A DNA stretch of 64,000 bases from Cellulosimicrobium cellulans (GTDB taxonomy: Bacteria; Actinomycetota; Actinomycetes; Actinomycetales; Cellulomonadaceae): the NCBI RefSeq assembly GCF_016921195.1, contig NZ_JAFGYF010000002.1, positions 372,001 through 436,000 on the forward strand. The letters are read 5' to 3'. This document shows, one piece after another, positions 6,858 to 9,360 of the stretch. Position 1 is the first letter of the stretch. Each line of letters starts with the position of its first letter. The position numbers were made by a program, and so were the translations under genes. The notes under the pieces are model-generated. The model was not told where the DNA came from, made no database searches, and saw nothing but the letters and a program-made list of their open reading frames with translations.

Positions 6858-8279
6858 ATGAGCAGCCAGGGCCTCACCCAGTCCACCGACCGCATGCGCG
6901 ACGCCGGAGTCGCCCCCGCCGCCATCGACGTCTTCACCCGCTTCTACCGGCTCCTCGAGTCCGGCGCGACCGGCATGATCCCCGAGTCCGACGTCGAGCC
7001 CCTCACCGACGTCACCCGCCGCGACGCGCTCGACGTCCCCGACACCGCCGCCCGCGACGCCCTCCGGCGCACCGCGATCATCAAGCTCAACGGCGGCCTC
7101 GGCACCTCCATGGGGATGGACCGCGCCAAGTCCCTCCTCACCGTGCGCGACGCCGACCCTCAGCGACCCGACAGCGGTCCCCTCACGTTCCTCGACGTCA
7201 TCGTCGCCCAGGTCCGCGCCGCCCGGCACGCCACCGGAGCACCCCTGCCCCTGCTCCTCATGAACTCGTTCCGCACCCAGGACGACACCCTCGCCGCGCT
7301 CGCTCCCCACGACGACCTCCCCGTCACCGGGCTCCCGCTCGACTTCCTCCAGAACCGCGAGCCCAAGCTCCGCGCCGACGACCTCACCCCCGTCGACTGG
7401 CCCGCCGACCCCGAGCTCGAATGGTGCCCACCCGGCCACGGCGACCTCTACACCGCCCTCTACGCGTCCGGGGCGCTGCGCGCCCTCCTCGACGCCGGCT
7501 ACCGCTACGCCAGCGTCTCCAACTCCGACAACCTCGGCGCCGCCCCCGACGCCGCCATGGCCGGCTGGTTCGCCGCCAGCGGCGCCCCCTTCGCCGCCGA
7601 GGTCGCCCGACGCACCCCCGCCGACCGCAAGGGCGGCCACCTCGTCGTGCGCCGCAGCGACGGACGCCTCGTCCTGCGCGAGACGGCGCAGACCCCCGAG
7701 GACGACCAGGACGCCGCCGCCGACATCAGCCGGCACCGGTACTTCAACACCAACAACCTCTGGTTCGACCTCGAGGCGCTCGCGGCGGAGCTCGACCGCA
7801 CCGGCGGCGTGCTCGAGCTCCCGCTCATCAAGAACACCAAGACCGTCGACCCGACCGACGCGTCGTCGCCCGAGGTCGTGCAGATCGAGTCCGCCATGGG
7901 CGCCGCCGTCGAGGTCTTCGACGGCGCCGTCGCGATCGAGGTCGGTCGCGACCGGTTCCTGCCGGTGAAGACGACGAACGACCTCCTCGTGCTGCGCTCC
8001 GACGTCTACGACCTCGACGACCGGTACCGGTTCGTCGCCCGGACCGACGCGCCCCTCGTCGACCTCGACCCGGCCTACTACAAGACCATCGCCGCGTTCG
8101 ACGCCCGGTTCGACGACGGCACCCCGTCGCTGCGCGCGGCGCGGTCGCTCACGGTGCGCGGGGACTGGACCTTCGGCTCGGGCGTCACCGTCACCGGCGA
8201 CGCCGAGCTCGCCGACCCGGGCGGCTCCTCGCGCGTCCCCGACGGCGCGGTCGTCGGCCCGGACGGGGTCAGCGACTGA
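6858..8279 (+). CDS. UTP--glucose-1-phosphate uridylyltransferase (UDPGP family)
   Basis: 473 residues of the eukaryote-like UDP-glucose pyrophosphorylase family, not the smaller GalU family. Hallmarks are the nucleotide-binding KLNGGLGTSMGMDRAKSLL, then LLMNSFRTQDDT, FLQNREPKL and WCPPGHGDLYTAL, the SNSDNLG metal/sugar loop, and a C-terminal beta-helix-like part with GDWTFGSGVTVTGDAE. It makes UDP-glucose from UTP and glucose-1-phosphate for cell-envelope sugars, trehalose or galactose metabolism. It stands alone, and its 3' side faces the repeat region at 8304-8691. Confidence 0.92.
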   Translation: MSSQGLTQSTDRMRDAGVAPAAIDVFTRFYRLLESGATGMIPESDVEPLTDVTRRDALDVPDTAARDALRRTAIIKLNGGLGTSMGMDRAKSLLTVRDADPQRPDSGPLTFLDVIVAQVRAARHATGAPLPLLLMNSFRTQDDTLAALAPHDDLPVTGLPLDFLQNREPKLRADDLTPVDWPADPELEWCPPGHGDLYTALYASGALRALLDAGYRYASVSNSDNLGAAPDAAMAGWFAASGAPFAAEVARRTPADRKGGHLVVRRSDGRLVLRETAQTPEDDQDAAADISRHRYFNTNNLWFDLEALAAELDRTGGVLELPLIKNTKTVDPTDASSPEVVQIESAMGAAVEVFDGAVAIEVGRDRFLPVKTTNDLLVLRSDVYDLDDRYRFVARTDAPLVDLDPAYYKTIAAFDARFDDGTPSLRAARSLTVRGDWTFGSGVTVTGDAELADPGGSSRVPDGAVVGPDGVSD

Positions 8280-8303
8280 CGCTGGGAACGGACTCGGGTC
8301 TCC

Positions 8304-8387
8304 CGAGATAGAACCGTGGTCACACGAGGTAGAACCGTGGTCACACGAGGTAGAACCGTGGTCGCGCGAGGTAGAACTGTGGTCGGG
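8304..8387 (+). repeat. Tandem array of four 21-bp repeats (left arm)
   Basis: Four units occupy exactly 21 bp each (8304, 8325, 8346, 8367). The shared 17-bp core is CGAGGTAGAACCGTGGT, followed by four variable bases (CACA, CACA, CGCG, CGGG). Unit 1 has A for G at core position 5 and unit 4 has T for C at position 12. There is no spacer, so it is not CRISPR. 21 bp is two helical turns and a multiple of three. The same units return inverted at 8608-8691. Confidence 0.95.
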
Positions 8388-8607
8388 CATTGGGCCGCAT
8401 CCGAGCCAACCCCACCGCTCGTCCGTCGGCCCACTGGGTAAGGGGCGGGCCCGCGGAGCCGACGCGGAACTCTGTTCGAGCGAGAGCGAGCTCCGGGGCC
8501 GGGGAGCAGACGGTCGTCGACGTCGCCGTGCGGGGTGGGTGGTGGTGCCGCGTCATGGCGGGGCTGGCAGGAGCGACGACCATCCAGGGCGACCACGCGC
8601 CGTCGGG
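8388..8607. other. Non-coding loop between the two inverted 21-bp repeat arrays
   Basis: 220 bp of ordinary GC-rich sequence between the arrays. I find no start codon with a Shine-Dalgarno sequence and no protein-like reading frame. Any open frames here run through both arrays and would read as heptapeptide repeats. Confidence 0.6.
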
Positions 8608-8691
8608 CAGGTCCGCGGTTCTACCTCGACCAACCACGGTTCTACCTCGACCGACCACGGTTCTACCTCGACCGACCACGGTTCTACCTCG
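8608..8691 (-). repeat. Tandem array of four 21-bp repeats (right arm, inverted)
   Basis: Four 21-bp units (8608, 8629, 8650, 8671) each end in GGTTCTACCTCG, the reverse complement of the left-array core. The outer three are near-identical. The innermost (8608-8628) keeps only the GCGGTTCTACCTCG half. With the left array this is an inverted-repeat pair with arms of about 84 bp lying between converging genes. Confidence 0.95.
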
Positions 8692-8703
8692 GCCGTGTCG
8701 CGG

Positions 8704-9360
8704 TCAGGCGGGGAGGTCGACGACGCGGTCGGTGCCGCGCTGGGCAGTGAGGGCGCCCGAGGTGGCGGCGGCGAGGTCGGCGTCGAACCGGTCGAGCTCG
8801 GTGGGCGGGACGTGGACGGTGAACTCCGCCTCGGTGGCGTAGGTGACGTCGTCGAGGGTGCCGTCGTGCTGGACGGCCCAGTCACGCAGGACGCCGTGGA
8901 GGCGGCCGGCGTCGGCGTGCGGGACGTCGACGCGCACCTCGGTCAGCACCGCACGGCGCACGGCCCGCGCGACGTCGAGCGCCTCGCTCACCGCGGACGA
9001 GTACGCGCGCACGAGCCCGCCGGCGCCGAGGAGCACGCCGCCGAAGTAGCGGGTGACGACCGCGACGACGTCGGTGACCTGCCGGTGCCGCAGCACCTCG
9101 AGCATGGGGACGCCCGCGGTGCCGGAGGGCTCGCCGTCGTCCGTCGAGCGCTGCTGGTCGGCGTGCGTGCCCACGACGAGGGCGACGCAGTGGTGCCGCG
9201 CGTCCCAGTGCTCCTTGCGGATGCGGGCGATCACGGCGTCCGCGTCGGCGACGGACGCGACGGGGGAGAGGTGCGCGAGGAACCGGGACCTCTTGACGAC
9301 GAGCTCGTGGTCGACCGGTCCAGCGATCGTGCCCCACAGCTCACCGGTGCCCGCGCTCAT
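8704..9360 (-). CDS. YigZ/IMPACT-family protein
   Basis: 218 residues. The N-terminal IMPACT (UPF0029) domain shows ELVVKRSRFLAHL, HHCVAL, STDDGEPSGTAGVPMLEVL and the signature VTRYFGGVLLGAGGLVRAYS (about residues 105-124). A ferredoxin-like C-terminal domain follows. Bacterial YigZ proteins are widespread and their biochemical role is unsettled; eukaryotic IMPACT acts in translational control. ATG start at 9360. Its stop lies 12 bp from the right repeat array. Confidence 0.9.
   Translation of the reverse strand: MSAGTGELWGTIAGPVDHELVVKRSRFLAHLSPVASVADADAVIARIRKEHWDARHHCVALVVGTHADQQRSTDDGEPSGTAGVPMLEVLRHRQVTDVVAVVTRYFGGVLLGAGGLVRAYSSAVSEALDVARAVRRAVLTEVRVDVPHADAGRLHGVLRDWAVQHDGTLDDVTYATEAEFTVHVPPTELDRFDADLAAATSGALTAQRGTDRVVDLPA

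Follow-up and report, generated by a model that had tools for sequence, protein, structure and literature searches.

What are two arrays of one short repeat, facing each other between the ends of two convergent genes, likely to do in the genome of a soil bacterium? We addressed this question for a locus of Cellulosimicrobium cellulans that lies within a 64,000-nucleotide stretch of DNA, analysed as a whole and called the window below. The original prediction described four units on the forward strand facing four units on the reverse strand with a period of exactly 21 bp, and this description is borne out by the positions of the unit core (GAGGTAGAACCGTGGTC) as well as by Tandem Repeats Finder, which reports 91% and 96% matches for the two arrays. 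The gap between the arrays, which had been given as 220 bp, measures 226 bp. The features of the locus are as follows.

6858..8279, + strand: UTP-glucose-1-phosphate uridylyltransferase gene (PF01704; Pfam)
8305..8384, + strand: left array, four 21-bp units (17-mer core matches, Tandem Repeats Finder)
8385..8610: loop of 226 bp between the arms, mostly unassigned sequence
8519..8574, − strand: remnant of another dispersed hairpin repeat, named D
8611..8690, − strand: right array, four 21-bp units (17-mer core matches, Tandem Repeats Finder)
8704..9360, − strand: UPF0029/DUF1949 protein gene (PF01205/PF09186; Pfam)

The 17-mer cores of the left array start at positions 8305, 8326, 8347 and 8368 (+; 1, 0, 0 and 1 mismatches), the array beginning at 8304 if a leading C is counted, and those of the right array start at 8611, 8632, 8653 and 8674 (−; 2, 1, 0 and 0 mismatches). 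The two genes converge around the array pair at 8304-8691, and each array lies in sense to its neighbouring gene: the TGA of the uridylyltransferase gene is found 25 bp before the first unit of the left array, and 13 bp separate the right array from the TGA of the UPF0029 gene, whose product we take to be of the YigZ/IMPACT type.

The inverted arms at this locus span 80 nucleotides with a complementarity of 85%, and RNA corresponding to positions 8270-8710 is predicted to fold at −261 kcal/mol, compared to a mean of −210 kcal/mol for shuffled sequences (z = −7.8). A long inverted repeat with such a stable fold is what might be expected of a locus from which double-stranded or small RNA is processed. 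However, the sole Rfam match at the locus (RF01668) scores 21.9 bits, which is below the family cut-off of 37, and the arms are imperfect at many of the loci described below, and so we regard this role as very improbable. The prediction that the locus is not a simple terminator held, as evident by the fact that no canonical T-tract terminator, in which a GC-rich hairpin is followed by a run of T nucleotides, was seen when 1.5 kb was scanned. Only two weak terminator-like matches were found in this region, one of which coincides with the left array and has a 5-bp stem, and neither of which lies at the large hairpin.

The core is not confined to this locus. When up to three mismatches are permitted, 522 sites are present genome-wide, compared to five for the reversed pattern, and related genomes also carry the repeat, as expected for the dispersed element that had been proposed as one of several readings. 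Because the core is present elsewhere in the genome, a local and recent duplication lacking function, which the rapid changes in copy number described below might otherwise suggest, is rejected by these genome sites together with the presence of the repeat in 17 of 17 Cellulosimicrobium genomes, and its remaining probability is negligible. At up to two mismatches the core is found in 15 of these 17 genomes, the source genome included. The apparent absence from the other two (G003 and G014, with no matches at this threshold) is incorrect, since both carry a diverged form. A scan for the exact 17-mer in a collection of genome contigs, which may omit the genome of the window itself, yielded 39 stretches, 32 of them from Cellulosimicrobium and the other seven with one match each. 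Carriage by phages or plasmids was also considered and rejected: no viral contigs carry the exact tandem pattern, and no plasmid matches window positions 8280-8710.

A looser pattern, consisting of two GAGGTAG motifs spaced 20 or 21 bp apart, was used to scan 221 genomes of the family. All 17 Cellulosimicrobium genomes carry it (7 to 240 matches each), as do 11 of 18 genomes of a second genus (g21; 16 to 291 matches each) and a further genome (G026; 32 matches). The remaining 192 genomes have 0 to 4 matches, with at least one in 57 of them, and reversed controls yield 0 to 2 matches across family genomes. Several contigs (C2 and C3 of G000; C8, C9 and C13 of G005) start inside arrays or copies of the D repeat, or within a few hundred bases of them, and therefore draft genomes may undercount the family. 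Across genera the octamer CGAGGTAG is retained and the other 12-13 bases of the unit differ. Its presence in the family scan is by construction because the octamer is part of the search pattern, which does not apply to the surplus of matches relative to the reversed control. Units of g21 are 20 bp long and differ in the bases after the tag, as in GAGGTAGGCAAC (G170) and GAGGTAGTTCGA (G173). Within Cellulosimicrobium, AACCG, AGCCC and TACCG dialects are each dominant in different species. A profile of 97 sites on contig C1 confirms that the trailing bases vary from copy to copy, but the expectation that variation is found mainly there does not stand, since unit positions 9 (A/G) and 12 (G/C) vary as well.

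To examine the genomic layout of the repeat we mapped 33 loci in 1.59 Mb of this genome (one more was dropped at a segment end), using gene calls from a custom script rather than a published gene finder. Thirteen loci lie between convergent genes, 12 between co-directional genes, two between divergent genes and six in genes, one of the last being a pair of distant single matches. The suggested location between convergent genes is thus a preference and not a rule: 13 loci fall in 222 convergent gene pairs and 14 in 1171 other gene pairs (odds ratio 5.1, p = 8e-5), but 14 of 27 intergenic loci have the other two arrangements. Arrays of two to six head-to-tail units are usual, and the outer unit is in sense for 34 of 38 flanking gene 3′ ends. 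As had been anticipated, arrays usually face each other in inverted orientation: in the 1.59 Mb, 23 of 26 pairs of adjacent intergenic arrays point towards each other.

For larger samples we pooled loci from several genomes. Seventeen loci from outside the genus that were regarded as chance hits (L031-L033, L048, L050-L055, L089, L093, L096, L099, L100, L112 and L113; L049 from G026 was kept) were left out of the pooled 3′-end, facing-pair and in-gene counts, as were loci shorter than 1500 bases for 3′-end and in-gene counts or 1000 bases for facing-pair counts. The pooled counts are not independent because orthologous loci of several species remain. Among 79 unique facing pairs the gap is 2 bp in 17, at most 49 bp in 45, and 121-489 bp in 34. 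A consensus-like facing pair is predicted to fold at −20.3 kcal/mol (z = −10.7), whereas five of six single units folded as DNA are no more stable than shuffled sequences (z from −0.2 to 0.7) and one yields a z of −2.7. Similarity between the two arms of a locus exceeds that of permuted arms in G000 (0 of 2000 permutations) and G011 (1.6%), but not significantly in G016 (14%), and the copy numbers of the two arms are weakly correlated (rho = 0.23, p = 0.04). At L330, an array of ten units is opposed by eight inverted ones, and the unit bodies of the two arms differ, with only approximately 11 bases at the start of the unit in common; this locus therefore does not require a perfect hairpin.

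Several of the long gaps between array arms hold the D repeat, a hairpin sequence of ~170 nucleotides that occurs in more than one species and whose fuller copies are 88-95% identical. Copies between arms are found at L247, L243, L240 and L236, near positions 989690, 1024110 and 1090220 of G000 contig C1, and at window positions 8519-8574, where the remnant has 87.5% identity over 56 nucleotides to the D copy between the arms of an array pair in G004. At least three other palindrome families fill the same convergent slot in other species (L064, L067, L068, L072, and the G000 and G011 counterparts of a G004 array).

Among 148 unique gene 3′ ends that have an array no more than 60 bp away, 132 are flanked by an outer unit in sense orientation and 16 by an antisense one. 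The TAG within the unit itself is the stop codon for 46 of the 132 genes with sense units, namely that of the first unit in 39 and that of the second unit in seven; in one further gene the stop lies at offset −27. For the second-unit class, the TAG of the first unit is altered and the reading frame is seven codons longer. These 132 genes end with TAG in 54 instances, TGA in 75 and TAA in three, and TAG accounts for 123 of the 970 stops of all genes on contig C1. GAGG precedes 10 of 24 TAG stops near sites, compared to 3 of 249 far from sites. At L276 (G007), two convergent genes overlap at a common CTAG, such that both stop with TAG.

A different relationship to coding sequence is found for the loci inside genes. 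The six in called genes of contig C1 include gcvP, hemD, an SDR gene, an EamA transporter gene and a P-type ATPase gene, all named by using Pfam except the ATPase, which was recognized by eye. Every unique in-gene array of at least two units (16 of 16) is antisense to its gene and in one phase, and these arrays encode (D[QH]GSTSx)n linkers in approximately six gene families. The L084 array was placed in the ATPase family on the basis of adjacent residues, and L026 lies in an unnamed gene. A period of 21 bp preserves the reading frame, whereas the period of 20 bp typical of g21 would not. The number of units in the EamA transporter gene differs between genomes (seven in G005, six in G000, four in G011, three in G004, two in G006 and one in G008), and the GcvP linker carries an array in six of the 16 genomes that could be read (G005 was unreadable in this comparison, as were G001, which gave no match, and G014 for SDR). 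The same linkers of GcvP and SDR, two unrelated enzymes, also hold another in-frame insert, ASDAKGV...GAASPST, which is present at L284, L294 and L295 (GcvP) and at L313 and partly L312 (SDR) in genomes G003, G009, G014 and partly G015.

These data bear on the possibility that the arrays are bidirectional terminators that evolved in place, originating as palindromes at convergent 3′ ends and lengthened by slippage, with no mobility involved. Such an origin would account for the preference for convergent pairs, the tightly spaced facing pairs and the stable fold, and the other palindrome families occupying the same slot in other species are consistent with it. However, independent origin would not be expected to place a common species-wide sequence at hundreds of locations, to generate in-frame copies in GcvP, HemD and other genes, or to leave most genera of the family lacking the repeat, and the two terminator-like matches at the window locus come with no T tract. 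We therefore consider this origin quite unlikely.

Comparisons between relatives reveal rapid turnover. Units are present at the 3′ end of the UPF0029 gene in eight of 17 genomes, and at the 3′ end of a beta-eliminating lyase gene in five of 17; of the remaining 12 genomes, 11 have different neighbours there and one has stops that overlap (CTAG). Genomes G011 and G016 differ in copy number at eight of 13 loci that are otherwise 97-99.9% identical; the positions common to these loci give no rate, since the loci were picked for having matches in both genomes. No target-site duplication was recognized in a few orthologous comparisons, and no clean empty site was established beside a filled one. 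In 15 alignments of relatives, CGAGGTAG is changed at 32 of 747 positions, compared to 67 of 935 for the rest of the 17-mer (p = 0.012), and the spacer is changed at 30 of 284 positions; flanking DNA, which is mostly genes, is changed at 2257 of 44002 positions (5.1%). There is thus modest evidence that the octamer changes less, given that the units were chosen by profile, which may introduce ascertainment bias, and that repeats can be misaligned.

Fewer changes in the octamer might be explained if CGAGGTAG, recurring on one face of the helix at intervals of two turns, is recognized by a DNA-binding protein, thereby making each array a multi-site platform that could, for example, structure the nucleoid or act as a roadblock between convergent genes, with the rest of the unit serving as filler. 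The retention of the octamer at a spacing of 20-21 bp across genera, next to species-variable bases, fits this proposal as well. However, the octamer was part of the pattern by which the relatives were found, the one-phase arrays in genes and the use of the tag as a stop codon require no binding protein, and the homogenization of the other bases throughout a species is suggestive of copying, not of selection acting on a site. On balance, a binding platform seems unlikely.

Among previously described elements, the closest likeness is to GTAG REPs and BIMEs (PMC3733652; PMC8266576). Like those elements, the repeat is present in high copy number and carries a GTAG motif, occurs as inverted pairs with GTAG outermost, and is mostly intergenic, located at gene 3′ ends and in the intervals of convergent or co-directional pairs, with some copies in genes. 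Moreover, the termini of GTAG REPs often provide a TAG stop to flanking ORFs (Di Nocera et al., 2013; PMC3733652), so that the use of the tag as a stop codon in some copies is already known for that class. There are also differences. A GTAG REP unit consists of GTAG plus its own stem-loop (PMC3733652), whereas single units of the present repeat mostly lack a fold of their own, as judged by the six units noted above. Here the tag is the octamer CGAGGTAG, which GTAG ends, so that the motif lies inside the unit rather than at a free end, and head-to-tail arrays with a 20-21 bp period are the rule. Spread by a RAYT was rejected: its Y1 transposase domain (PF01797) is absent from 17 of 17 Cellulosimicrobium genomes, the genus to which the search was confined, and the control search detected it in five of 14 known genomes, including E. 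coli. Thus, the family works like a GTAG REP/BIME but is not filed as one, because single units are mostly unfolded, head-to-tail arrays dominate, and no RAYT is found in the 17 genomes. The text of PMC3733652, figures excluded, contains no match for Isoptericola, Cellulomonas or Actinobacteria, and a literature search limited to titles and the beginnings of abstracts yielded nothing relevant to a printed description of the family, which is no proof of absence.

Three other classes were compared. Rickettsia palindromic elements (PMC10969869; PMC3733652) are likewise palindromic and present in frame within unrelated genes. However, they are ~150 bp long and those of R. conorii end with CGTC, whereas the unit described here carries CGAGGTAG and its in-gene form is a tandem repeat of seven residues in one phase, with variable copy number, that forms linkers. 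Bacterial MITEs (PMC10969869) share the properties of being short, non-coding, inverted-repeat sequences with many copies, and the A-D-A composites reach a few hundred base pairs, but in a limited search the present repeat had no recognized target-site duplication or related insertion sequence. DNA uptake sequences of Neisseriaceae (PMC3630211) also exist as species dialects of one short dispersed sequence, form inverted pairs tied to terminators and include a stop codon in one frame. These parallels raise the prospect that the repeat is itself an uptake signal read by a competence receptor, often placed as inverted pairs at terminators. Yet uptake sequences number in the thousands and are not described as head-to-tail arrays in the portion of PMC3630211 available, whereas the present repeat forms such arrays and has hundreds of copies, and so there is little chance that it serves in DNA uptake.

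Overall, the array pair is probably a member of a dispersed, GTAG-tagged repeat family that supplies stop codons and 3′-end hairpins in a manner similar to REPs and BIMEs, and whose copy number is driven by slippage. This non-coding family extends beyond Cellulosimicrobium to two or more further genera of the same bacterial family, with head-to-tail units that have a period of 20-21 bp and consist of CGAGGTAG and 12-13 species-variable bases. Its copies are found mainly at gene 3′ ends with the outermost unit in sense, where the flanking gene can end at the TAG of the unit. Two facing arrays would then form a long hairpin common to the 3′ ends of both transcripts, which most likely would act as a 3′-end stabilizer or a weak bidirectional terminator. 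Inside genes the family persists mainly as antisense, in-frame linker arrays. Slippage would raise and lower copy number, and homogenization of units within a genome would give rise to the species dialects. Dispersal, orientation, the use of TAG as a stop, the in-frame linkers and the differences in copy number between close relatives are evident from the sequences themselves. We infer that the copies are mobile instead of having been seeded by conversion, and a recombinase may read CGAGGTAG. Counted against this explanation are the lack of any transposase found to be tied to the family, the failure to establish a target-site duplication or a clean empty site, the minority of gene 3′ ends with antisense units (16 of 148), the 12 co-directional and two divergent loci among 27, and the weak correlation between arm copy numbers.

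The original prediction is therefore partly supported in its interpretation, and the role of TAG as a stop codon, the in-frame arrays in genes, the second repeat between some arms and the species-specific unit variants go beyond it. We can tentatively propose, as a possibility that is far from established, that these sequences represent a class of actinobacterial mobile repeat that is independent of RAYT. Read forward, a unit would provide a stop codon and half of a 3′-end hairpin, and read backward in one phase it would provide a flexible (DQGSTSx)n linker. The octamer CGAGGTAG, spaced two turns apart, would be recognized by a recombinase or binding protein, and the remaining bases would be free to drift into species dialects. 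The findings extend GTAG-type repeats to an actinobacterial family that lacks the transposase thought to spread them, and consequently make dispersal without RAYT testable. Because arrays are present in some species of g21 and lacking in others, the missing enzyme could be sought there by phyletic profiling. Furthermore, the in-frame linker arrays of one transporter provide a natural series of one to seven units across species, and some gene ends in these bacteria borrow their stop codon from a repeat.
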